This document shows positions 3,302 to 30,068 of a stretch of 33,663 nt of DNA, piece after piece. The stretch lies in the NCBI GenBank assembly GCA_026552955.1, contig JAPMTS010000048.1:1063-34725 (forward strand). Direction: 5' to 3'. A program made the translations under genes and the position numbers. The DNA is from Candidatus Methanoperedens sp. Its GTDB lineage: Archaea > Halobacteriota > Methanosarcinia > Methanosarcinales > Methanoperedenaceae. How positions within the stretch are numbered: position 1 is the first letter of the stretch; every line of letters begins with the position of its first letter. A model generated the notes under the pieces. That model ran no database searches, was not told where the DNA came from, and worked only from the letters and a program-made list of their open reading frames with translations.

Positions 3302-4630
3302 TCATCTCCAATAAGGTTTCTTCAATTCAATATATGCATTATGAGCGACCGTTGCCCCATTTGAGACGGCAACCACAACGAGCTGAAGGTCAGAAGCGAT
3401 ATCTCCGACAGCATAAATGCCATCAATATTGGTCTTCTGGGTCTTATCCGTCTTAAGATAGCCCCTCTCATCCATTTCAAGCCCAAGATTCTTGAAAATT
3501 TCGGTATTGGGTGTCAGGCCCACTGCCAGTACCACCGAATCCACAACCTGCTGGATGTTTTCATCTTCTTTCAGGTCTTTCATGAGGACTTTTTCGACGT
3601 TATCCGTCCCTGAAATTTCAAGGACTTCGGTATTATACAGCACTTTTACCCTGTCGATCGCTTTCAGTCGCTCTATCTTATTCGGGACTGACCTTAGTTC
3701 CTCATCCTTACATGCGATCGTAATGAGGTCGGCAGTATCAGCAATGCTTAATGCTGCATCAACTGCTGAATTCCCGCTGCCCACCACGATGACACGCTTG
3801 CCTGTGAAATTCCCGGGATTCCTGACATAATAATATACTCCTCTCTTGCTGAATTTCTCTTCGCCCTTTATCCCGCCGGACGCAGGAGAACTGCCTGTTG
3901 CAAGAACAATGATCTTACCTTTATATTCCCCGCTTTCTGCAATGATCTTCTTATCAGGGGTTATCTCATTCACACGTTCTTTTTTCAATTCCACTTTTAA
4001 TTTCTTCGCCTCATTCACCCAGCTATTGACAAGGTCTGAGCATGTTGATTTCTCACACAGCCCAGGGAAATTCTCGATCATCTTATTGGGGCAAAGCCAT
4101 GACAATATGCCGCCCCAGTTCGAAGCTTCAAATATGGCAGTCTTTAGCCCGCGATATGCGCAAAGGATACCCGTAGTCAGTCCGCCCGGACCTCCGCCTA
4201 CGATGATCACATCGAAATCATATTTTTGCGCTTCAATTTTTTCCTTCTCCTCCTTATGGGCCATATAATCCTTAATAGCCGCATGGAGAGCATCCGCTGC
4301 AAGATTGGAGCAGTGCATCTTGATAGGAGGCAAGCCCCCAAGCTCTTCGGCCACCTCACCGCGCGTGATCTTGAGTGCTTCTTCAAGCGTTTTCCCGATA
4401 GCCATTTCCGTTATCATGCTGCTTGTTGCGATAGCCGATCCGCAGCCGAACGTTTTGAATTTGACATCTTTTAAGATATTGTTCTCTACTTTAATCTGGA
4501 TCTCCATCAAGTCCCCGCATACTGGATTTCCAACCCTTCCAATACCATCTGCATCCTTTACCTGGCCTACGTTCCTTGGGTTCCTGAAATGATCCATTAC
4601 CTTTTCTGAATATTCTAACTGTTCTTCCAT
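3302..4630 (-). CDS. IscU/NifU-N Fe-S scaffold fused to a thioredoxin-reductase-like flavoprotein
   Basis: 442 residues with two domains. Residues 1-125 are an IscU-type scaffold with all three cluster cysteines (C38 in NPVCGD, C63 in FGCGSA, C107 in MHCSNL) and the conserved Asp40. After a charged linker (126-137), residues 138-442 form a two-dinucleotide flavoprotein: FAD motif GGGPGG at 145-150, NAD(P)H motif GSGNSA at 284-289, and the C-terminal FAD motif YAVGDIA at 406-412. The CxxC redox pair that thioredoxin reductase carries just before the NAD(P) motif is absent; the aligned stretch (264-280) reads YYYVRNPG. It therefore resembles TrxR-like ferredoxin/flavodoxin reductases more than a disulfide reductase. 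It starts 1 bp after the iscS stop, so the two are almost certainly co-translated. Inference: the flavoprotein feeds electrons to cluster assembly on the attached scaffold. Confidence 0.92.
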   Translation of the reverse strand: MEEQLEYSEKVMDHFRNPRNVGQVKDADGIGRVGNPVCGDLMEIQIKVENNILKDVKFKTFGCGSAIATSSMITEMAIGKTLEEALKITRGEVAEELGGLPPIKMHCSNLAADALHAAIKDYMAHKEEKEKIEAQKYDFDVIIVGGGPGGLTTGILCAYRGLKTAIFEASNWGGILSWLCPNKMIENFPGLCEKSTCSDLVNSWVNEAKKLKVELKKERVNEITPDKKIIAESGEYKGKIIVLATGSSPASGGIKGEEKFSKRGVYYYVRNPGNFTGKRVIVVGSGNSAVDAALSIADTADLITIACKDEELRSVPNKIERLKAIDRVKVLYNTEVLEISGTDNVEKVLMKDLKEDENIQQVVDSVVLAVGLTPNTEIFKNLGLEMDERGYLKTDKTQKTNIDGIYAVGDIASDLQLVVVAVSNGATVAHNAYIELKKPYWR

Positions 4631-4631
4631 A

Positions 4632-5795
4632 TTATTTCCTCACATAGAGCGGCGACAATTCTCTTAATCGCGCAACGATCTTCGGGATAGATACAATGAC
4701 ATGGTCCACATCTTCTATGGTGTTCCTTCTTCCAAGAGTAAGCAATAGCGATCCGTGAGCTTCCTCATGCCTTAATCCCAGAGCGATCAGGACATGTGAG
4801 GGCTCAAGGGTTTTTGTGGAACATGCAGAACCTGTGCTTGCTGTTATCCCCAGGTCGTTAAGCTGGAGAATGATGCTTTCACCTTCAATGAAGCTGAACC
4901 TGAAACTTGCATTATTGGGAAGCCTTTTTGTCCTGTGCCCCGTTAAATATGTGTATTCCATTTTGAGGATATTATCGATAAGTTTGTCCCGCATTTTCAT
5001 GAGCCTGGCGTTTTCACTCGTCATTTCTTCCAAAGCTATCAGGGCAGCTTTTCCCATCCCGACTATGCCGGGAATGTTCTCAGAACCGCTCCTCATCCCG
5101 AATTCCTGCCCTCCTCCCAGCATGAAAGGAATTATCCTCACACCCTGTTTGATATAGAGTGCGCCAACACCTTTCGTGCCTCCCATATCATTGGAAGAAA
5201 TTGTTAAAAAATCGATATGTTCCTTCTCCACATCAACAGGAACTTTGCCGACTGCAGCTGTCCCATCCACATGGAACATTATTTTCCTCTCTGAGGCGAT
5301 CTCGCCAATTTCTCGTATCGGCTGGATGGTCCCAATTTCACCGTTGGCATACATTACTGAAATAAGGATGGTCTTTTCTGTTATTGCATTCTTTACCTGT
5401 CCGGGATCCAGGAGCCCATCCTTATCAACAGGAATATATGTGACCTCAAATCCGCTCTTTTGCAGGTCTTTTAAGGCATTCATCACAGACATATGCTCTA
5501 TCGAGGTTGTGATTATATGATTTCCTTTATCTTTATACCTCATTGCTGCGCCGCGAAGAGCAAGATTGTTGGATTCGGTCGCGCACGATGTGAAAATAAT
5601 ACTTTTCGGATTGGGTGCACCTATCAGCTTTGCGACGCTTGTGCGTGCATTTTCAAGCTCTCTTTTTGCTTTTCGCCCCTGCGAATGAAGCGATGAGGGA
5701 TTCCCGATATCGTTTTCAAAAAACGGTATCATGGCTTCGAGCACGCAGGCATCCACCGGTGTAGCCGACCCGTAATCCATATAAACCTGTTTCAT
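4632..5795 (-). CDS. iscS: Cysteine desulfurase IscS, archaeal type lacking the PLP lysine
   Basis: 387 residues, fold type I aminotransferase-like desulfurase, full length. His102 (IEHMSV), Asp177 (HVDG) and the mobile-loop sulfur-accepting Cys325 (TGSACSTKT) are present, as is the GGGQEFGMRSGSEN stretch. The lysine that forms the PLP Schiff base in the canonical SGHK motif is replaced: the local sequence is SSNDMGG, with Asp203 at that place. The usual Gln of the D-x-x-Q motif is also Ala180. The same Lys-to-Asp change is known from Archaeoglobus fulgidus IscS, which was reported to carry PMP and to need added PLP. Likely role: sulfur donor to the IscU domain encoded 1 bp downstream. Kept as iscS with this reservation about mechanism. 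Confidence 0.93.
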   Translation of the reverse strand: MKQVYMDYGSATPVDACVLEAMIPFFENDIGNPSSLHSQGRKAKRELENARTSVAKLIGAPNPKSIIFTSCATESNNLALRGAAMRYKDKGNHIITTSIEHMSVMNALKDLQKSGFEVTYIPVDKDGLLDPGQVKNAITEKTILISVMYANGEIGTIQPIREIGEIASERKIMFHVDGTAAVGKVPVDVEKEHIDFLTISSNDMGGTKGVGALYIKQGVRIIPFMLGGGQEFGMRSGSENIPGIVGMGKAALIALEEMTSENARLMKMRDKLIDNILKMEYTYLTGHRTKRLPNNASFRFSFIEGESIILQLNDLGITASTGSACSTKTLEPSHVLIALGLRHEEAHGSLLLTLGRRNTIEDVDHVIVSIPKIVARLRELSPLYVRK

Positions 5796-15124: not shown

Positions 15125-15169
15125 TTTGTGTAACAATACTCTCTTATAACAAGAGTATGATTACACAAA
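15125..15169. promoter_or_regulatory. 45-bp inverted repeat over the AbiEi start codon (probable autoregulatory operator)
   Basis: Two nested perfect arms: TTTGTGTAA (15125-15133) with TTACACAAA (15161-15169), and ATACTCT (15136-15142) with AGAGTAT (15152-15158). The arms are separated by symmetric 2-base gaps and a 9-base centre containing CTTATAA. The ATG (15157) lies inside the right arm. AbiEi antitoxins are known to repress their own promoter through inverted repeats, so this is the expected operator. In mRNA the same sequence could also hide the start codon. Confidence 0.75.
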
Positions 15170-15972
15170 ACATAAAATTAGGAACGAACGAACTTAAGTT
15201 ACTGTTCACTTTAGAAGAAGAGAATAAATCCATTTTTTCAATAACCGATGCAAAGCGAATTCTGAAAACCTCCACCCCCTCTGTCTGGAATGTTATATAC
15301 CGCTTAAAGAAAAAGGGAAGGATAGAAGAGATAGAAAAAGGAAAATACCTTCTGATCCCGGCAAGAGCAGGTTATGGGGGATCATGGTCTGAAGTCCCAT
15401 ATCTGCTCGTTCCTAATATCATAAGTACTTATTACATCGGTTTCTGGACAGCACTTAACTATTGGGGCATGACAGAACAGGTTCCTAATGTGGTCTTCGT
15501 TGCGACAACACGGAGAAAAAAAGATGTTGAATTTGGAGATACGCGATACGAATTTGTCACATTGATGAAAAAGAGATTTTTTGGATATGTGGAAGAAAAT
15601 ACCGCCAGTGGAACTTTCAATATATCCTCAAGGGAAAAAACAATAATTGACTGCATATTATATCCAAAATACTGCGGCGGGCTGGATGAAGTTATTAAAG
15701 GGATATGGAAAGCCAAAGATGAACTGGACTTTATTAAGCTGCTTGAGTACTCAAAAAGGATGGATGTTAGCGTGGTTACCAGAAGAATAGGTTATGCACT
15801 GGAGTTACTGGGACTGGCAGAGGAAATAAGTTCCCAGATCGCTTCCACCAGATCAAAAGGATATATGTGGCTTGATCCTGTAGGACCAAAAAAAGTTATA
15901 GAATACTCAAAAAAATACGGACTCATAATCAATCGAAAAAAGGATGAATTGACGGGCTGGATGGAGTATTAA
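15157..15972 (+). CDS. AbiEi-type antitoxin / transcriptional repressor (type IV TA), copy 1
   Basis: 271 residues. The N-terminal winged helix (about 1-70: FSITDAKRILKTSTPSVWNVIYRLKKKGRI..., then a wing EEIEKGKYLLIP) is followed by the conserved AbiEi core with ISTYYIGFWTALNYWG (about 88-105) and a later SSREKTIIDCI (about 152-162). Antitoxins of this type repress the operon by DNA binding and counteract the nucleotidyltransferase toxin without binding it. The partner toxin gene begins 2 bp after its stop but carries an amber codon. The start is set inside the 45-bp palindrome. Confidence 0.85.
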   Translation: MITQNIKLGTNELKLLFTLEEENKSIFSITDAKRILKTSTPSVWNVIYRLKKKGRIEEIEKGKYLLIPARAGYGGSWSEVPYLLVPNIISTYYIGFWTALNYWGMTEQVPNVVFVATTRRKKDVEFGDTRYEFVTLMKKRFFGYVEENTASGTFNISSREKTIIDCILYPKYCGGLDEVIKGIWKAKDELDFIKLLEYSKRMDVSVVTRRIGYALELLGLAEEISSQIASTRSKGYMWLDPVGPKKVIEYSKKYGLIINRKKDELTGWMEY

Positions 15973-15974
15973 AA

Positions 15975-16766
15975 ATGGATGAAAATGATTTAAGAAGGCG
16001 AGCCAGAAAGACAGGTTTCAACGTGGCTACCCTGGAAAAAGACTATGCTCTGACATGGCTGCTCAGCGGAATTTACTAGGAAGACTCAAAGCTAAGGGAT
16101 ATCCTGATCTTTAAAGGAGGGACAGCGATACGAAAAATTTACTTTCCTGAATGGCGCCTTTCAGAGGATATGGACTTCACGATCATGCAGGAAGTTGATC
16201 CTTCAGAGTTGAAAGATGGATTTGAACAGGTTTTCTCATCTGTTTCCAAGAAAAGCAGCATCAATTATTCGTTCACTTCTTTTAATGCAGGAGAGTATGC
16301 TATTTTTGCTGATGTCCAGTTCCTGGGTCCAATTGGATTCAAGAATAAGATCGCTCATGACATCTCCCTGACAGAAAAAATGATCGAAAAGCCCATGCGG
16401 ATAAAAATTAAGCCTGAGTATGAAGACATTCCGGAATTTGAAGTACTTGTTTATTCACCAAATGAGATCCTGGTTGAAAAGCTGCGCAGCATCCTTCAAA
16501 GAGGAAAGGCGCGAGATTATTACGATGTCTGGCGGCTTATGAAAGAAAAAGAGTTTAACAGGGATAAGATCAGAGAACTTTTCATCCTGAAATGCCAGAT
16601 CACTGGGATTGAGTTCAACCCTGAACTGATCTTTGATGAAAACAGGCTCTCTGAAGCAAAAAAGTTCTGGACTATCGCTCTTGCCAGACTTACAAAGAAC
16701 CTTCCTGATTTCGATTCGGTTGTAAATGATTTGAGGTTGATGCTGGATTTTATCAAAGTGAAATAG
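15975..16766 (+). pseudogene. AbiEii-type nucleotidyltransferase toxin interrupted by an in-frame TAG
   Basis: One frame from ATG 15975 to TAG 16764-16766 encodes a complete AbiEii-like toxin, except that codon 35 (16077-16079) is TAG. Upstream: KDYALTWLLSGIY; directly after the stop: EDSKLRDILIFKGGTAIRKIYF, then RLSEDMDFT, the GG(T/S)...SED-x-DF nucleotidyltransferase signature, and later LQRGKARDYYDVWRL. Nothing else is broken, so the lesion is recent, a sequencing error, or recoded. A CAG-to-TAG or AAG-to-TAG change would explain it. The family modifies tRNA or other targets and causes stasis. A shorter product from an ATG at 16170 would lack the active site. Confidence 0.85.
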
Positions 16767-17215
16767 CTGCCAGAATATTCATTGGAATACGATGTCTTCA
16801 GGAGGCTCATAAGGATGGTGAATTGTCCTCATAAACAACTATCCGGAAATTCCTGACAATTCAAACCGAAGGAGGCGGGCAGGATTTTCTTTAATCAGTT
16901 GCAATATAATGAAATATTTTTTTTCTGCCTCCCTATCTACCTCCTTCAATTCGTTTACTCCCTCCTTTTCTCCCTCCCTCCCAAACAAAGCCCCCAACTA
17001 ATCCTCGCAGGCGCATGATCTGGCAAAATCATGACCATCACCACCAAGATCACAACCTAATCGAAAATGAAAACATCGACCTCCCCAGCCTCATGCTCAC
17101 GTTCTTCAAAGAGATCGCAAGAAACATGCGCAAAAAAGTCGAGAAGCCCCCAGAGAAAAGAATTGATTGTTAACTATTACCAATTCAGCGCCGCCGATGT
17201 GGGATTGTTCCGTTA
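16767..17215. other. Intergenic region with pyrimidine tract and a possible small ORF
   Basis: The plus strand at 16928-16988 is a striking C/T-rich tract built of CTCC and CTCCCT units. Downstream, an ATG at 17015 opens a 52-codon frame (MIWQNHDHHHQDH..., ending EKPPEKRIDC, stop 17171-17173) that looks coding-like at its C-terminal half (LTFFKEIARNMRKKV) but lacks a good ribosome site; perhaps the tail of a lost gene. The repeat copy at 17216 follows closely. Confidence 0.35.
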
Positions 17216-17361
17216 TCCGTACGCTCCAATCACCGCATCCTTCGCTCATTCCGCTCACGCTTCGTTCACTCAGGCACGGCTCTCGCCTTGCGGTCATTGT
17301 CGCTTCTGTTCTGGCGACAGTCCGCGCCGGGTGCTCAGACAGTCGCCGGCATCGGTAGCAT
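17216..17361. repeat. Dispersed intergenic repeat, copy 1 (short, diverged)
   Basis: Shares with 25931-26157 and 26921-27147 the stretch beginning TCCGTACGCTCCAATCACCG, then GTTCACT, CTTGCGGTCATTGTCGCT, GGTGCTCAGA and AGTCGCCGG in the same order. It ends after about 146 bp, where the other two copies continue for another 80 bp. It is GC-rich compared with the flanks. It lies between the two AbiE loci. Confidence 0.8.
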
Positions 17362-17497
17362 GTTTCTTTTAGGCTGCAAGTTATTTCTATCTAGAGGGGC
17401 ACTGGATACCTGAAGATTACAGGGTAGGAATACTATCTTTCCACGTGTCAGAAGGAATAGTTTTATAAACCTTATTACACATATTTTATAGTATATC

Positions 17498-17509
17498 TAC
17501 ATATATGTA
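17498..17509. promoter_or_regulatory. Palindrome at the start codon of AbiEi copy 2
   Basis: TACATATATGTA is a perfect 12-bp palindrome that includes the ATG (17505-17507). A TATA-like TATTTTATAGTATA lies just upstream (about 17482-17495). Probable autoregulatory site, by analogy with the longer palindrome of copy 1. Being AT-rich and short, it could be chance. Confidence 0.4.
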
Positions 17510-18305
17510 TAACAACAGCAAAATAAGCGTAAATCTAAGCCCACTGGAACATAAACTGTATTTTGGTTTCTATGAGAAAGAGGTTCTCAGGAATAGCGAT
17601 GCATATGAGCTCATTCCAAATAAAAAAACAGCAAGACAGATCCTTTTCAGATTGAAAAAGAAGGGTTTTATCAGGCAGGTCAGGCGCGGCTTGTTTGCCA
17701 TCGTTCCGGCGCAAATGATAGGAAAAGAATTTTCTATCGACAGGATCCTTGTAGCGTCACAGTTAACCCGGCCCTACTTCATCTCGCACCATACAGCACT
17801 TGAAATACACGGAGTAGCGCAGTCCTATCATAATATCACATATATTTCAACAAACAAGATCTTAAGACCTTTCGAATACCAGGACATTTCCTATAAGATC
17901 ATAACTACGAAATACAAGTTCGGAATTGAGCAGATCCAGCGAGGAACTCTCAAAATAAATGTCAGCGACAGGGAAAGAACCGTTCTTGATTGCATCAGGA
18001 ACCTAGAATATGCTGGCGGCATCGAAGAGCTAACAAAAAGCATATCAGCATTTCCCGGTCTCAATTATAAAAAGTTACTGGAATATCTTTACCTTTACAA
18101 GGAAAAAAGCCTTTATCACAGGACTGGTTTCATCCTCGATCGCCTGAAAAGTGAATTGAATGTCCCGCAAGACATTCTTGAAAATATAAGGGAAAATCTC
18201 AGCAAGAGAACTTATTATTTGTATCCCGGAATAAAAGGAGTTTATAAGAAAGAATGGAACATCATCGTGCCTGAAAACATAACAGAGTTGATGAAAGTTG
18301 CTTAA
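17505..18305 (+). CDS. AbiEi-type antitoxin / transcriptional repressor (type IV TA), copy 2
   Basis: 266 residues with the same plan as the protein at 15157: N-terminal winged helix (about 10-70, TARQILFRLKKKGFIRQVRRGLFAIVP), then SRPYFIS-like core here TRPYFISHHTALEIHG (about 88-103), and VSDRERTVLDCIRN (about 160-172). The two antitoxins are clearly diverged rather than a recent duplication. Its stop overlaps the toxin start by 8 bases, the standard coupling in AbiE operons. The partner toxin is truncated, so the antitoxin may now be free to act only as a regulator. Confidence 0.85.
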   Translation: MYNNSKISVNLSPLEHKLYFGFYEKEVLRNSDAYELIPNKKTARQILFRLKKKGFIRQVRRGLFAIVPAQMIGKEFSIDRILVASQLTRPYFISHHTALEIHGVAQSYHNITYISTNKILRPFEYQDISYKIITTKYKFGIEQIQRGTLKINVSDRERTVLDCIRNLEYAGGIEELTKSISAFPGLNYKKLLEYLYLYKEKSLYHRTGFILDRLKSELNVPQDILENIRENLSKRTYYLYPGIKGVYKKEWNIIVPENITELMKVA

Positions 18306-18864
18306 GCCTGACAGGAAATACTATGAGAATCTTTCAGAGAAGACAAATTTCCAAAAAGATATTCTGGAAAAGGTTTACAGGCTCGCTGACCTTCTGAGAA
18401 CGATCTATGATACTGAGTTTTTAAATGGCAAGTTTGTCCTAAAAGGCGGTACTGCAATAAATTTCATCTATTTCAACATGCCTCGGCTTTCTGTTGATGT
18501 TGATTTCAATTTTGTAACTGGTGAACAAAGAGAAGATATGTTAAAAAGCAGGGAGAATATCGATAAGATCCTGACAAAGATCTTCACCATGAAAGGATAT
18601 GGAATTGAAACAATAAAGCGATATGCACTTTTGCAATACAATCTGAAATACACAAATACCGGCGGAAATATCGACAGGATGAAGGTTGAAATAAATTTCA
18701 TGGAACGCATCCCTGTTTTTGAGATCGCTGAAAAGAAGATCAGCATCTTTGACATTCCTGAATTTACAGTCAGGACTTACAGACTGGAGGAGCTTTTTGC
18801 CACAAAGCTAAGGGCGTTGCTCACAAGGACTGCTCCAAGAGATATGTTTGATATTTACATTTGA
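18298..18864 (+). pseudogene. AbiEii-type nucleotidyltransferase toxin, C-terminally truncated
   Basis: 188 residues from TTG 18298. The active-site region is intact: FVLKGGTAINFIY (about 43-55) and RLSVDVDFNF (about 61-70). The frame ends at the RTAPRDMFDIYI segment, which in this family is followed by roughly 80 more residues. The stop is created where the sequence joins the tail of the opposite-strand glycosyltransferase at 18855-18864. Because the C-terminal helical domain is missing, activity is doubtful. Confidence 0.8.
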
Positions 18865-19971: not shown

Positions 19972-20196
19972 ATGGCAAACAAAGCCGGGGAGACAACTTC
20001 GGAATATACCAGGATCTATGTGGATAATGTAGAGGTCGGATCAGCAGACATAACACTATCTTCAGCGACTCCTGCCGTAGTGGCCATCCCGTCATGTATT
20101 GTAGGCCAGATCGTTCAGATATACACCCATAGGTTGATCATTGGCTGGCGAAAAACGATCCATCATATTACTAATGCTAATATCATTGATCTATAA
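19972..20196 (+). CDS. Short hypothetical ORF, probably a gene fragment
   Basis: 74 codons from ATG 19972. The first 50 residues (NKAGETTSEYTRIYVDNVEVGSA...) look like part of a beta-rich surface or structural protein; the tail runs into the 3' end of the SDR gene on the other strand and loses that character. No ribosome site. Likely a remnant. Confidence 0.3.
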   Translation: MANKAGETTSEYTRIYVDNVEVGSADITLSSATPAVVAIPSCIVGQIVQIYTHRLIIGWRKTIHHITNANIIDL

Positions 20197-20876
20197 ATTT
20201 CAATGGACTGCCCCTGACGGTATTTTCCTGGATGGATGCAGATATCAGCAACTTTTTCAGCAACTTCCTCCGGTTTGAGGTCTGCCTTTTCACCTGGGAA
20301 AAGCCATTTGAACATCCCCGTATCCACGCTGCCCGGGCATAATGCAACTATTTTGATATTATTAACCTCCACTGCAGCAGATTCGGTAAGGCCTATCACA
20401 GCAAATTTTGATGCGCAGTATGCACCAAGCTCCTGAATTCCTGCTTTCCCCGCCCCTGAAGAAATGTTTATTATCAAGCCTGTGCTATTTTTCATTTCTG
20501 GAATTCCATTCTTCATATACAGGAAAGTGCCTTTGACATTCACGTCCATTACTTCCTCAAATTCTTCGACCCCGGTTTCCCATAGATATTTTCTTAATCC
20601 CTTCCCTGCATTATTTACAAGAATATCAACTTTCCCGAATTCTTTGATAGTTGCATGGATAACTTCTTTTACATCTTTTTCTATCGTAACATCCCCTTTT
20701 ATAAAAATCGATCTTCCTCCTGCATCATTTATTTCCTTGCTCACTTTTTCTATATCCCTTGCTGTCCTTCCGGTTACAATTACATTTGCCCCTTCCCTGG
20801 CCAGCCTTTTTGCGATATATTCACCTATACCTCTTCCACTTCCGGTAACGATCACGCTTTTATTTTCAAGTTTCAT
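20163..20876 (-). CDS. Short-chain dehydrogenase/reductase (FabG-like)
   Basis: 237 residues, classical SDR. The NAD(P) motif TGSGRGIG is at 11-18, NNAG at 88-91, catalytic Ser near 139-140 (NISSGAG), and YCASK with Tyr153 and Lys157. It reduces a carbonyl with NAD(P)H or the reverse; the substrate is not evident. GAGGAAT lies just before the ATG and a TATA-like TTTTATAGC (about 20886-20894) upstream. It is divergent from the biotin operon and shares its regulatory region, so a role in supplying pimelate-like precursors is possible but unproven. Confidence 0.9.
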   Translation of the reverse strand: MKLENKSVIVTGSGRGIGEYIAKRLAREGANVIVTGRTARDIEKVSKEINDAGGRSIFIKGDVTIEKDVKEVIHATIKEFGKVDILVNNAGKGLRKYLWETGVEEFEEVMDVNVKGTFLYMKNGIPEMKNSTGLIINISSGAGKAGIQELGAYCASKFAVIGLTESAAVEVNNIKIVALCPGSVDTGMFKWLFPGEKADLKPEEVAEKVADICIHPGKYRQGQSIEIYRSMILALVI

Positions 20877-21000: not shown

Positions 21001-21070
21001 TATGAATTGCTGCCCATGATTGTATCCTTGACTTTTATTTGCTCTAAAAACACCATAACATTTTAATCGA

Positions 21071-21101
21071 TTGTTAACATTACCAACAACAAAGTTAACA
21101 A
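21071..21101. promoter_or_regulatory. BirA-type biotin operator
   Basis: TTGTTAAC (21071-21078), 15-bp spacer, GTTAACAA (21094-21101): perfect arms matching the known BirA operator pattern of bacteria and archaea, including the spacing seen in the Bacillus bio operon. It ends 11 bp before the bioB ATG at 21113, so binding of a biotinoyl-AMP-loaded BirA with a DNA-binding domain would block transcription of bioBWUFD. Confidence 0.85.
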
Positions 21102-21112
21102 TACCTCAAATC

Positions 21113-22087
21113 ATGCTAAAAAAGATCCTTGCGAAAATCGAAAAAAATGAATCTATAGACTTCTCGGAAGCATTTGAACTCATTCAACGGGAAGGAAAAG
21201 ATTGCATGGAATTGTTCTCCCTGGCAAACCATGTGCGCTCAAAGCTCGGTGACAGGGTTGACCTGTGTTCTATCGTTAATGCAAAGTGCGGTCTCTGCTC
21301 CGAAGACTGCAAATTCTGCGCGCAATCGGTACACAACGATACCGAAATAACGCCTTACCCGATGATGGAGGAGGACGAGATCATCAACATGGCACAACTG
21401 ATGGAAGAAGAGGGATCCGCCCGATTTTGCATCGTTACAAGTGGAAAAGACGTAGTTGGGGAAGATTTTGAAAATATACTAAGTTCCATACGACGGATCA
21501 GGAAAGAAACCCATTTATCAGTGTGCATTTCTTCGGGCATGCTCACAGGTGAGCGCGCTTTGGCCCTGAAAAGTGCGGGAGCAACGAGATTGCATCATAA
21601 TCTTGAGACCTCAAAAAGTTTTTTCAATAAAATATGTACCACACACACGTATGATGACAAAATAAAAACGATTCATATTGCAAAGGAGGCTGGTTTTGAA
21701 GTCTGCTGCGGCGGGATAATCGGGATGGGCGAGTCGGTACGAGACCGTCTGGAACTTGCTTTTACCCTTCGGGAACTGGATGTGGATTCCATCCCCATAA
21801 ATATATTAAATCCCATCAAAGGAACGCCTCTTGATAATGAAAAACCCATACAACCTCTTGATATCATAAAGACAATATCAGTTTTCCGTCTCATTCTGCC
21901 TGGAAAAAATATACGAATTGGCGGCGGTCGTGAGAAAAATCTCCGGGATCTGCAGGGTTTATGTCTTCTTGCAGGCGCGAACGGACTGCTTCTTGGCAAT
22001 TATCTCACCACTCAGGGTAGAACGCCGCGCGATGACATCATGATGATAAATGACCTTGGACTTATTCCGGGAGGTGTTCATGTTTAG
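21113..22087 (+). CDS. bioB: Biotin synthase
   Basis: 324 residues. Radical-SAM enzyme inserting sulfur into dethiobiotin, the last step of biotin synthesis. The 4Fe-4S cluster motif C-x3-C-x2-C is at 62, 66 and 69 (CSEDCKFCAQS); typical BioB segments ISSGMLTGE, HHNLETS, CCGGIIGMGES and NILNPIKGTP follow in order. The ATG at 21113 is chosen over an in-frame TTG at 21071, because the upstream 14 codons are the BirA operator itself. First gene of the biotin operon; its end overlaps bioW by 8 bases. Confidence 0.97.
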   Translation: MLKKILAKIEKNESIDFSEAFELIQREGKDCMELFSLANHVRSKLGDRVDLCSIVNAKCGLCSEDCKFCAQSVHNDTEITPYPMMEEDEIINMAQLMEEEGSARFCIVTSGKDVVGEDFENILSSIRRIRKETHLSVCISSGMLTGERALALKSAGATRLHHNLETSKSFFNKICTTHTYDDKIKTIHIAKEAGFEVCCGGIIGMGESVRDRLELAFTLRELDVDSIPINILNPIKGTPLDNEKPIQPLDIIKTISVFRLILPGKNIRIGGGREKNLRDLQGLCLLAGANGLLLGNYLTTQGRTPRDDIMMINDLGLIPGGVHV

Positions 22088-22847
22088 TATCAGAATGAGA
22101 GCGGAAAAAAACGAAAAACACATATCAGGAGCAGAGACCCTCGTTGAGAAAAACATGATCTTGGCGACTATCACGGAATTTGCCCAACGAGCGTTATCTC
22201 ATGAAAAAGGAGAGCCTGATTTCATAAATATATCAGTTGAATTAATAAAAACCCCGGTCAAGAAACTAACTTCCCTTCCGCTTATCTTGACGCATGTTGA
22301 AAATGAAACCGAAGGAAAAACGCTTGCCAGGAAATTGCTTCTTGAACTTGGGATACCGGAATTGTGCATTGAAAAAAGTATCTCTCTTCTTGAAAAAGGA
22401 CCGGCAAATGGTGAAAATATGCGGGGTGCGATCATCATGGATCTTAATGGGAACAGGCTTGAGCCCGACTTCGTTCGAGGCATCCGGGCATCCCACATTG
22501 GGATAACGGAAGAAGCTTCAAAGGAACTTCAAATGGCGATTTCGGATATAGGACTGTCAGCTTTTTATACATATATAAGCGATGCACTTGTGCTTGCAAC
22601 AAAAGTAGCATCTGTCGAAGGGACGCTCGGTGAACTTTGCTGGTCTGATGACCCTTCATATACCGCTGGCTATGTTGCATCTGGAAAAAAAGGATACATC
22701 CGTATACCGCATTTGAAAAAGAAAGGTGACTCCTGCGGAGGACGCGTGTTTTTTGTGGAAAATATCGACCCTGGGAATTATATTAATGAGATGGAAAGTG
22801 CTCCTGTTCTGGTCAATAGATTTGGGGGAATAAGGAACTTCAAATAA
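22080..22847 (+). CDS. bioW: 6-carboxyhexanoate-CoA ligase (pimeloyl-CoA synthetase)
   Basis: 255 residues. It activates free pimelate with ATP and CoA, giving the substrate of BioF. The hallmark N-terminus MFSIRMRAEKNEKHISGAE and the C-terminal GGRVFFVE are present; length matches the family. Start at ATG 22080, because GGGAGGTG lies 4-5 bases before it; an upstream ATG at 22050 lacks a site and would only extend into bioB. The presence of BioW implies that pimelate itself is the entry metabolite rather than a BioC/BioH pathway. Confidence 0.95.
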   Translation: MFSIRMRAEKNEKHISGAETLVEKNMILATITEFAQRALSHEKGEPDFINISVELIKTPVKKLTSLPLILTHVENETEGKTLARKLLLELGIPELCIEKSISLLEKGPANGENMRGAIIMDLNGNRLEPDFVRGIRASHIGITEEASKELQMAISDIGLSAFYTYISDALVLATKVASVEGTLGELCWSDDPSYTAGYVASGKKGYIRIPHLKKKGDSCGGRVFFVENIDPGNYINEMESAPVLVNRFGGIRNFK

Positions 22848-22875: not shown

Positions 22876-23876
22876 ATGAAACAACAACAGGTAGTGAAAT
22901 TGAAACGATCGAAAAGGAATGAAACTGCCAACATCGCCGTTCTTGGCGCTGGTGGTCTTGGAATGGCAGCAGCAAAAATGCTAGCAAAGAAAAAGGAAAT
23001 GAGACTTGCGGCCATTGCTGATAAAACCGGGTATATTTTTGACCATGGGGGGATAGATCCGGGACTTCTTGAGACAAAAAAGCCCGGTGAAATTGGAATC
23101 AGCACCAAGGACGCTATTACTCTAATCATTGAAAATTCACAGGAATTCGACGGTATTTTCCTTGCTCTTCCAAACCTTACGAATAGCTTTATCCCTGATA
23201 TTGTCTCACGATTTGCAGATGCGGGTTATAACGGGGTGATGGTGGATGCCATGAAACGGTCGCAGGCAGTTGAAATGATCTTTGGACTGGATGGTGTTCT
23301 AAAGGATGCAGGCATCACCTATATTACAGGGGCCGGCGCAACTCCGGGATTGCTGACATGCGCTGCCGCGATAGCTTCGAATTCTTTTATGGAAGTAACA
23401 GGTGTTGACATAAATTTCGGAGTAGGAGTTTCAAACTGGGAATCATACCGTGCAACAATACGGGAAGATATCGCGCATCTTGAGGGCTTTAACCTTCCAA
23501 AAGCTGCGGATATGACCTGCGCTGAGATAAAGAGGGAGCTTGATACTAGAAAAGGAATTCTCCACTTGCACAATATGGAACATGCGGATGATGTGCTTCT
23601 CGAAAGGGCCGGGATCTTATCTCGTGAAAAAGTCACAGTCGGTGGAGTTGTTGACACGCGAAATCCCAAGAAACCTGTAAGCACAACGATGACACTCACT
23701 GGAAAAACTTTTGATGGAGCAGTTTCAAGCCACAAATTCATCCTTGGCGATGAGACAACAATGGCAGCCAACGTGGTTGGACCAGCTCTTGGATGGATGA
23801 AAGCTGGTCTTGAGTTCCATGCAAGGGGTATATATGGCGTATTCGGTTCCGCTGAACTGATGCCAAGATTCGTCCT

Positions 23877-23880
<4 letters not shown>
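22876..23880 (+). CDS. bioU: BioU-type (S)-8-amino-7-oxononanoate synthase: suicide-lysine replacement of BioA
   Basis: 334 residues with an N-terminal NAD(P)-binding Rossmann motif GAGGLG (24-29) and a saccharopine/homoserine-dehydrogenase-like layout. The gene stands exactly between bioW and bioF where bioA would be expected, and no bioA is present. In cyanobacterial BioU, Lys124 is covalently joined to the substrate and gives up its amino group; here K127 in VDAMKRSQ is at nearly the same distance from the N-terminus. Other features are TGAGATPGLLTC and the conserved HNMEHADD. Function: converts KAPA to DAPA-type product with its own lysine as amino donor, one turnover per molecule. GAGG precedes the ATG; the stop overlaps bioF by 4 bases. 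Confidence 0.88.
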
Positions 23881-25875
<1,995 letters not shown>

Positions 25876-26157: not shown

Positions 26158-26296
26158 TGAACATATCTTTGCATCAGATGAGGTGTTGCCCTTATCTCAT
26201 CTTGAAACAATATTTATAAATGGGAATCTACCATATCTGATTAGAGTATATCCATACCTGTTGAATATCCTGATATCAATTCAAAAGGAGTTAATA

Positions 26297-26533
26297 ATGC
26301 CAAAAAAATTGATCATATCCAATCCCAAAGTGATGATGGGAAAACCAATAATCGCAGGAACCCGCATTACAGTTGAGATGATCCTGGAAAAACTTTCTGC
26401 AGGTGAAACAACGGAAGAGATTCTAAAAGCACACCCCAGACTCACTGAAGAGTCAATAAGAGCAGCTCTTGCATTTGCAGCGCAGGCATTACGCGCAGAT
26501 GTAGTATATCCTGTTGCTGAGGCCACTTCGTGA
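26297..26533 (+). CDS. DUF433 antitoxin
   Basis: 78 residues from ATG 26297, supported by AAAGGAG 8 bases upstream. Family signature GKPIIAGTRITVEMILEKLSAGET followed by LKAHPRLTEESIRAALAFA is complete. DUF433 proteins are helix-turn-helix-like antitoxins that pair with PIN-like toxins. The stop overlaps the DUF5615 start by 4 bases (GTGA), the typical TA arrangement. An upstream extension to 26183 has no ribosome site and is rejected. Confidence 0.9.
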   Translation: MPKKLIISNPKVMMGKPIIAGTRITVEMILEKLSAGETTEEILKAHPRLTEESIRAALAFAAQALRADVVYPVAEATS

Positions 26534-26886
26534 ATTTCCTGGCCGATGAGAATATTGACAGGCAAATTGTGGAGCGCCTTAGACAGGAAGGCCATAATGT
26601 GGAATATGTTGGTGAAATTGATCCCGGAATTACTGATGATGAAGTACTTGAAATGGCAAAGAGTAAAGCATTCTTGCTGTTAACAGCAGATAAAGACTTT
26701 GGTGAGCTAGTATTTCGTCAGCAACGAATTACACATGGTGTTATTCTCATTCGATTAGCAGGTTTTTCTTCGGAAAAGAAAGCTGAAATTGTCGCTTCTT
26801 CCATCAAGAAACATATCAAAGAATTGCTGCACGCTTTCACAGTAATTAGTAAAGGGGCAATCAGGATTCGTCATGAAATTGAATGA
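26530..26886 (+). CDS. DUF5615 PIN-like toxin
   Basis: 118 residues from GTG 26530. FLADENIDRQIVERLRQEGHNV at the start and LLTADKDFGELVF at about 50-62 give the acidic residues (D6, D54, D56) of the PIN-like/Mut7-C nuclease fold; HGVILIRLAG is the usual third strand. It is predicted to cleave RNA and to be neutralised by the DUF433 protein encoded immediately upstream. Both genes are intact, unlike the AbiE toxins in the window. The pair is bracketed by the two 227-bp repeats. Confidence 0.88.
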   Translation: MNFLADENIDRQIVERLRQEGHNVEYVGEIDPGITDDEVLEMAKSKAFLLLTADKDFGELVFRQQRITHGVILIRLAGFSSEKKAEIVASSIKKHIKELLHAFTVISKGAIRIRHEIE

Positions 26887-29070: not shown

Positions 29071-29084
29071 TGAACGGTGGTTCA
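29071..29084. promoter_or_regulatory. Inverted repeat over the start of the MNT gene
   Basis: TGAAC (29071-29075), 4-base spacer, GTTCA (29080-29084), covering GTG 29077. TGAACG also occurs at 29051-29056, 20 bp upstream, and TTGAAC at 29090-29095. The winged-helix domain of the encoded protein is the likely reader. Confidence 0.45.
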
Positions 29085-29649
29085 TTTGATTGAACTTTTC
29101 AGAAAATACGTACCATGGAAGATTCTGGCGCATTATATGGGAAATCCAAATACATCTTTTCACATAAAACAGCTTGCAAGGATCATCGAAGTTAGCCCTG
29201 CCAGTGTAAGCAGCGCTGTCAAATCCTTCGAAAGTGAAGGTTTTCTGTTAAAGGAAGAAAAGGGACTGGCGCATATTTACAGGCTGAACGCAGAAAATGC
29301 TTTTATCATTTCACTAAAGAAAGCATATGGTATTGCTCTTGTGAGTTCATCAAAACCCGGGGAAAAATTCCTTGAAACAGACCCAGGCATCATTTCCCTT
29401 GCACTTTTTGGAAGTTATGCGCAGGGGAGTTTTGATGAAAGAAGCGATATAGATTTTCTAGTAGTGACACCCACCAGGAAAGAGAATCTCATAAAAGCTG
29501 CAAAAAGAATAGAGGAAGAACTGGAAAAGGAAGTAAATTTATCAGTATTTAAATTATCAGAATGGAGATCTATGGCAAAAAAAGGTGATGCAATCTACAA
29601 AAGAATTGTGGAGAACCACATTCTGCTTTATGGAAGTGGATTAAAATGA
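29077..29649 (+). CDS. MNT-type nucleotidyltransferase antitoxin with N-terminal winged helix
   Basis: 190 residues. Residues 10-70 form a winged helix (HIKQLARIIEVSPASVSSAVKSFESEGFL); residues 105-185 a minimal nucleotidyltransferase with the GS(x10)DxD active site: G112-S113 and D124/D126 (FGSYAQGS...SDIDFLV). In MNT-HEPN pairs the MNT protein inactivates the HEPN RNase, in studied cases by AMP-ylating it. Start GTG 29077 is set by TATA distance. The stop overlaps the HEPN start by 4 bases (ATGA). Confidence 0.88.
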   Translation: MVHLIELFRKYVPWKILAHYMGNPNTSFHIKQLARIIEVSPASVSSAVKSFESEGFLLKEEKGLAHIYRLNAENAFIISLKKAYGIALVSSSKPGEKFLETDPGIISLALFGSYAQGSFDERSDIDFLVVTPTRKENLIKAAKRIEEELEKEVNLSVFKLSEWRSMAKKGDAIYKRIVENHILLYGSGLK

Positions 29650-30068
29650 AACTTGATGAATGTTTCAAGAAAGGTCTTCTAAAGAGGATACCGCCGGATA
29701 TGGATAATGCTCATCGTTCCATCAGACTATCATCGGAAAATATAGAAGACGCCGAAGAGAATCTTCGAATTAAACGTTACAGAGTCGTGGCAATTTTGAG
29801 TTATACTGCCATGTTCCATGCTGCAAGAGCTATTCTGTTCAGGGATGGTGTAAAAGAGCGCAGTCACGAATGCATACCTGTTTATCTTAAAGAAAAGTAT
29901 CTGGAACTGGAGTCTCTGGCGAACCTTCTTGATTCGTACAGAAGATTCAGACACGATGCGATATATGGTCTTGATTTTGCCATTGATGAAGAAGAAGCGC
30001 GAGCTTCACTGGAATCATCAAAAGAATTTCTGGAAACAATTAGAGATATTTTGAATGGGCATTTGTGA
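29646..30068 (+). CDS. HEPN-domain protein, toxin partner of MNT
   Basis: 140 residues, all-helical. The pattern SYTAMFHAARAILF (about 52-65) and SYRRFRHDAIYG (97-108) is that of HEPN proteins next to MNT genes; the basic and aromatic cluster R99/R100/R102/H103/Y107 occupies the place of the R-x4-6-H RNase motif, although the exact spacing differs. It is coupled to the MNT gene by overlap and appears intact. Expected role: RNase toxin held in check by the upstream protein. Confidence 0.85.
   Translation: MKLDECFKKGLLKRIPPDMDNAHRSIRLSSENIEDAEENLRIKRYRVVAILSYTAMFHAARAILFRDGVKERSHECIPVYLKEKYLELESLANLLDSYRRFRHDAIYGLDFAIDEEEARASLESSKEFLETIRDILNGHL

Follow-up and report, generated by a model that had tools for sequence, protein, structure and literature searches.

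The stretch of DNA analysed here, 33,663 nt at its full length (the window), carries five biotin synthesis genes in the order bioB-bioW-bioU-bioF-bioD, all of them on one strand and with successive gaps of -8, +28, -4 and +1 nt (Table 1). The ATG at 21113 is the likelier start of bioB, because the TTG listed at 21071 would set the operator described below inside the gene. A divergent SDR gene (20163-20876) was considered as an additional member of the operon and discarded, as it was not seen near bioB in other loci. The bio operon is set among toxin-antitoxin type pairs (15157-18864, 26183-26886, and 29077-30068), i.e., two AbiEi/AbiEii-like pairs, one DUF433/DUF5615 (PIN-like) pair, and one nucleotidyltransferase/HEPN pair. 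The window also contains, at 3302-4630 on the minus strand, a gene whose product joins a NifU_N domain and a thioredoxin-reductase-like flavoprotein in one fusion and, adjoining it (4632-5795), an apparent NifS/IscS-type cysteine desulfurase.

Table 1. Genes, regulatory site, and predicted catalytic residues of the bioBWUFD locus (positions in the window).
Feature	Position	Strand	Evidence
BirA-type operator	21070..21102	.	ATTGTTAAC-N15-GTTAACAAT; perfect 9-bp arms, palindrome
bioB, biotin synthase	21113..22087	+	TIGR00433, 408 bits (cut-off 225)
bioW, 6-carboxyhexanoate (pimelate)-CoA ligase	22080..22847	+	NF002360, 259 bits (cut-off 226); PF03744, E 1e-75
bioU	22876..23880	+	ATG..TGA, 334 aa; NF047886, E 7e-128; PDB 6ir4/6k36/6itd/6k37/6k38
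Glycine-rich nucleotide-binding loop G24-G29, Rossmann domain	22945..22962	+	alignment
K127, predicted sacrificial lysine	23254..23256	+	codon AAA; Lys124 equivalent by alignment
H236, His233 equivalent	23581..23583	+	H in 111/111 homologues
bioF	23877..25031	+	TIGR00858, 456 bits (cut-off 426)
bioD, dethiobiotin synthase	25033..25755	+	TIGR00347, 188 bits (cut-off 83); ATG 25033

The operon is preceded by a BirA-type operator located directly after the TATA-like element ATTTTAAT and 10 nt upstream of the bioB ATG. This operator is the sole match in the window, with 0 expected from shuffled sequences, and its core has a single exact match in the 2.48-Mb genome and 0 in the reversed control. 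Equivalent sites (ATTGTnAAC-N15-GTTnACAAT) are located upstream of bioB in most Methanoperedens loci. The bioY gene of the present genome is also preceded by the operator, with one mismatch (L155:1097-1129), and the same box is found before bioY in relatives, including some that do not have the bio operon and carry the box at bioY alone. The BirA protein of the genome (locus L108, 1237-2211), encoded downstream of a biotin carboxylase gene, comprises HTH_11, ligase, and C-terminal domains. The presence of these sites, together with a BirA that has a DNA-binding domain, makes it likely that BirA represses both bioBWUFD and bioY. Since bioY is also present, the operon may be needed only conditionally. 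This organization is similar to that of the BirA-biotin operator systems of bacteria and archaea, which have a 9-bp inverted repeat with a 15-bp spacer before the bio genes or bioY and a BirA with an N-terminal HTH, but here the system would control an operon that contains BioU.

The bioU product matches the BioU profile of NCBIfam (NF047886) with 426 bits, residues 20-333 aligning with positions 1-322 of the 323 in the model, a score that lies below the curated cut-off of 600 bits. This cut-off is a naming threshold and not a biochemical defining feature; it was reached by none of the 394 genomes of the phylum sample, and all the archaeal BioUs seen score below it. When the PDB was searched with the sequence, the sole matches were the entries of Synechocystis Slr0355 (BioU), with E values of ~1e-111, the best one being 6ir4 (E 1.5e-111, residues 19-333 of the window protein), and both proteins share 56% identity over their full length. 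The AlphaFold model (pLDDT 88) has an NAD(P)-binding Rossmann fold and the tertiary structure of BioU, with TM scores of 0.89-0.93 to five BioU crystal structures, the next folds being meso-diaminopimelate dehydrogenases (TM 0.5-0.6). No match to a class-III aminotransferase domain was found in the protein. On sequence grounds, the ORF is a full-length BioU. To our knowledge, BioU has so far been characterised in a cyanobacterium.

The predicted sacrificial residue K127 is part of the sequence VDAMKRS, and a lysine occupies this position in all the homologues that cover it (109/109, in an alignment of 111). The glycines G24, G26, G27, and G29 of the nucleotide-binding loop are invariant in the 102 homologues covering them. 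In the Synechocystis enzyme, Lys124 has been mutated in the PDB entries 6itd and 6k37, and His233 in 6k38, whose title describes the H233A mutant structure as that of the DAPA conjugate. The earlier note had taken the gene in the place of bioA to be an archaeal bioU whose K127, in a DAMK motif, falls near Lys124. The alignment carried out here places K127 on the BioU lysine, and the family profile, the PDB matches, the predicted fold, and the pair K127/H236 all agree with the identification. The term archaeal is also appropriate, as the closest named BioU records belong to Candidatus Methanoperedens, that of strain BLZ2 being 94% identical. Because the closest named BioU loci are all from this genus, the host is an anaerobic methane-oxidising archaeon.

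In the predicted pathway, BioW would transform free pimelate, the entry point, into pimeloyl-CoA, and BioF would use pimeloyl-CoA and alanine to yield 8-amino-7-oxononanoate (AON). We infer, as one possibility, that pimelate might derive from the oxidation of 7-oxoheptanoate, a compound that is made on the coenzyme B route. The predicted BioU would then convert (S)-8-amino-7-oxononanoate into 7,8-diaminononanoate-carbamate, replacing the PLP enzyme BioA. In this reaction, the side-chain amine of Lys127 would condense with the ketone of AON, and NAD(P)H would reduce the imine, so that diaminononanoate becomes covalently bound to BioU. The amine left free in this conjugate would take up CO2, and an oxidation of the lysine side by NAD(P)+ would then free diaminononanoate-carbamate, with Lys127 ending up as a dead aldehyde. 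One BioU polypeptide would thus be consumed per biotin. Finally, BioD would close the ring with ATP, and BioB would insert the sulphur.

This scheme is that of the cyanobacterial enzyme, for which PMC12915131 and PMC7133116, reporting the work of Sakaki et al. 2020, describe that AON is attached to Lys124 with reduction by NAD(P)H and that the conjugate is carboxylated, after which an oxidation with NAD(P)+ frees diaminononanoate-carbamate and the lysine is spent. Given that K127 and H236 are invariant, the cyanobacterial route is the most likely one for the window BioU, and it is family membership together with the conserved catalytic residues that would justify calling it a suicide enzyme. 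We consider it improbable that a dehydrogenase with the BioU fold performs the BioA step with many turnovers, either because Lys127 is re-aminated or because ammonia or another amine is used. To spend one protein per vitamin molecule is costly, and the next-closest folds correspond to meso-diaminopimelate and amine dehydrogenases, whose reactions rely on ammonia and NAD(P)H; against this, the single-turnover cyanobacterial enzyme, to which the protein is 56% identical from end to end, has the same residues at and around Lys127 and His236.

The search for BioA covered the window and the draft genome (2.48 Mb, 95% complete). No bioA was found in the window, and no protein of the genome exceeds the 405-bit cut-off of the BioA profile (TIGR00508). 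The best match, with 285 bits, was discarded as a BioA, since it is an ArgD (523 bits, over the ArgD cut-off). The genome encodes four class-III aminotransferases, all below the BioA cut-off; among the others, one is PRK05769-like, with a sub-cut-off score, and the remaining two obtain low scores with the BioA profile. One of the four (C28:118280-119470) falls below every specific NCBIfam cut-off, so that a side activity on AON is possible in principle. The genome being 95% complete, a bioA could lie in the missing 5%. In the 60 genomes searched, the present one included, no BioA over the cut-off was detected.

Methanoperedens loci in which one contig covers the entire operon have the bioBWUFD arrangement, except in genome G030, in which bioB, bioU, and bioD are together (L022, L034) and bioW and bioF are on another contig (L023). 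BioB and BioW were found in the same 20 of the 60 genomes and BioU in 20 as well, 18 of them in common (Fisher p 4e-11, kinship ignored). The four mismatches comprise two genomes with a BioU cut at a contig end (G026, G031), one with a cut BioW (G027), and one that is 56% complete (G056). The genes of the operon are present or absent together in these genomes. The earlier note had described a contiguous set of biotin genes with bioA missing and BioW paired with BioU. Each of bioB, bioW, bioF, and bioD has its family match beside bioU, no bioA above the family cut-off appears elsewhere in the genome or in the relatives searched, and the pairing is kept across the genus.

Two Methanoperedens genomes, i.e., METP1 (G003) and BLZ2 (G017), have two sets of bioB, bioW, and bioU, and in BLZ2 both complete operons were read. 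In these double operons (G003:C10; G017:C27/C33; L027, L029, L033, L158), one copy is near that of the window and the other has diverged; the METP1 genome is listed with 6% contamination, and thus, a mixed bin is possible there. The anaerobic ethane oxidisers Argoarchaeum and Ethanoperedens also have BioU, but encoded separately from bioB-bioW. A bioBWUFD operon with a BioU 45% identical was also found in an archaeon (G187; L157, G187:C76) that belongs to the same phylum but to a different family; McrA motifs, sought there in connection with coenzyme B synthesis, were not detected in about 1.0 of its 1.9 Mb. BioU was not found in phage records or in IMG/VR, so there is no sign of a virus-borne gene.

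It is very unlikely that the gene encodes a relative acting on another substrate (e.g., a dehydrogenase of the diaminopimelate or saccharopine type) lodged in the operon, with a promiscuous class-III aminotransferase providing the BioA activity, since, even if the genome has four such enzymes, among them the one below every specific cut-off, these aminotransferases are also present in relatives that have none of the pathway, while the gene co-occurs closely with bioB and bioW, keeps its position in the bio operon across the genus, the haloarchaea, and G187, and reaches a TM of 0.9 to BioU only. With high probability, the window contains a complete bioBWUFD operon under BirA-type control that would enable biotin synthesis in vivo, in which the predicted BioU does the job of BioA by spending Lys127.

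The window BioU shares with Synechocystis sp. PCC 6803 BioU (Slr0355) the fold, the lysine (K124/K127), and the histidine (H233/H236), and differs from it in being archaeal, in being encoded in a bioBWUFD operon that a BirA-type operator precedes, and in scoring under the family cut-off. In the cyanobacterial loci examined, no other bio genes were found within about 5 kb of bioU. A related organization, bioB-[BioU]-bioF-bioD, is that of the haloarchaea (e.g., a plasmid of Haloferax larsenii and plasmid 2 of Natronococcus occultus SP4), in which BioU occupies the slot between bioB and bioF and the lysine and the histidine are kept, but the haloarchaeal BioUs are about 43-45% identical to that of the window and form a long separate branch, represented by, e.g., NATOC_RS19850. 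BioW was not found in any of the 10 haloarchaea-like genomes searched, the assignment to haloarchaea being based on the named plasmid records (Natronococcus, Haloferax) of the same layout. The deposited haloarchaeal BioUs are labelled as hypothetical protein or transcriptional regulator (e.g., L159:3902-4930 and L160:3902-4930). Methanococcales are comparable as archaea with a pimeloyl-CoA supply of the BioW type, BioF, BioD, and BioB, but they use BioA where the window operon has BioU (PMC6138646).

A deep split divides the BioU tree in two, one part comprising the haloarchaea and G187, and the other the bacteria, Methanoperedens, and the ethane oxidisers. Within the latter, the BioUs of Methanoperedens and of the ethane oxidisers adjoin those of cyanobacteria and Poribacteria with good support, and the sequences suggest a transfer of BioU between bacteria and these archaea. 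A single archaeal BioU clade gave an AU p of 0.0455, a borderline rejection with long branches, and thus, independent acquisition is not established. It is conceivable, if rather doubtful, that BioU entered the same operon slot, from bioB/bioW to bioF, in two deeply separate archaeal lineages, i.e., as a haloarchaeal type and as a bacterial-like type, the latter in Methanoperedens and the anaerobic ethane oxidisers. If this were true, BioA would have been repeatedly replaced in place by an unrelated single-use enzyme, and the possible advantage would be an aminotransferase-free route or a strict stoichiometric control of biotin output.

BioU itself is already known, but in the literature examined, we found no earlier report of BioU in methane- or ethane-oxidising archaea, of a BioU-BioW operon, or of a BirA-type control of BioU; the original description of BioU may already mention homologues from haloarchaea or other archaea. 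The curated NF047886 model misses the archaeal BioUs, and thus, public records under-annotate this enzyme. A survey of 2018 found a complete archaeal biotin pathway only in Methanococcales, reported Methanosarcinales without bioW, bioF, bioA, and bioD, and described Halobacteria with bioF, bioD, and bioB and never with bioA (PMC6138646). BioU fills the bioA gap of Halobacteria, and the picture of Methanosarcinales is corrected by the complete pathway of Methanoperedens, whose five genes constitute a compact cassette from pimelate to biotin. Methanoperedens are environmentally important methane oxidisers, and among them, biotin-making species coexist with others that, having bioY only, are apparently biotin-scavenging.
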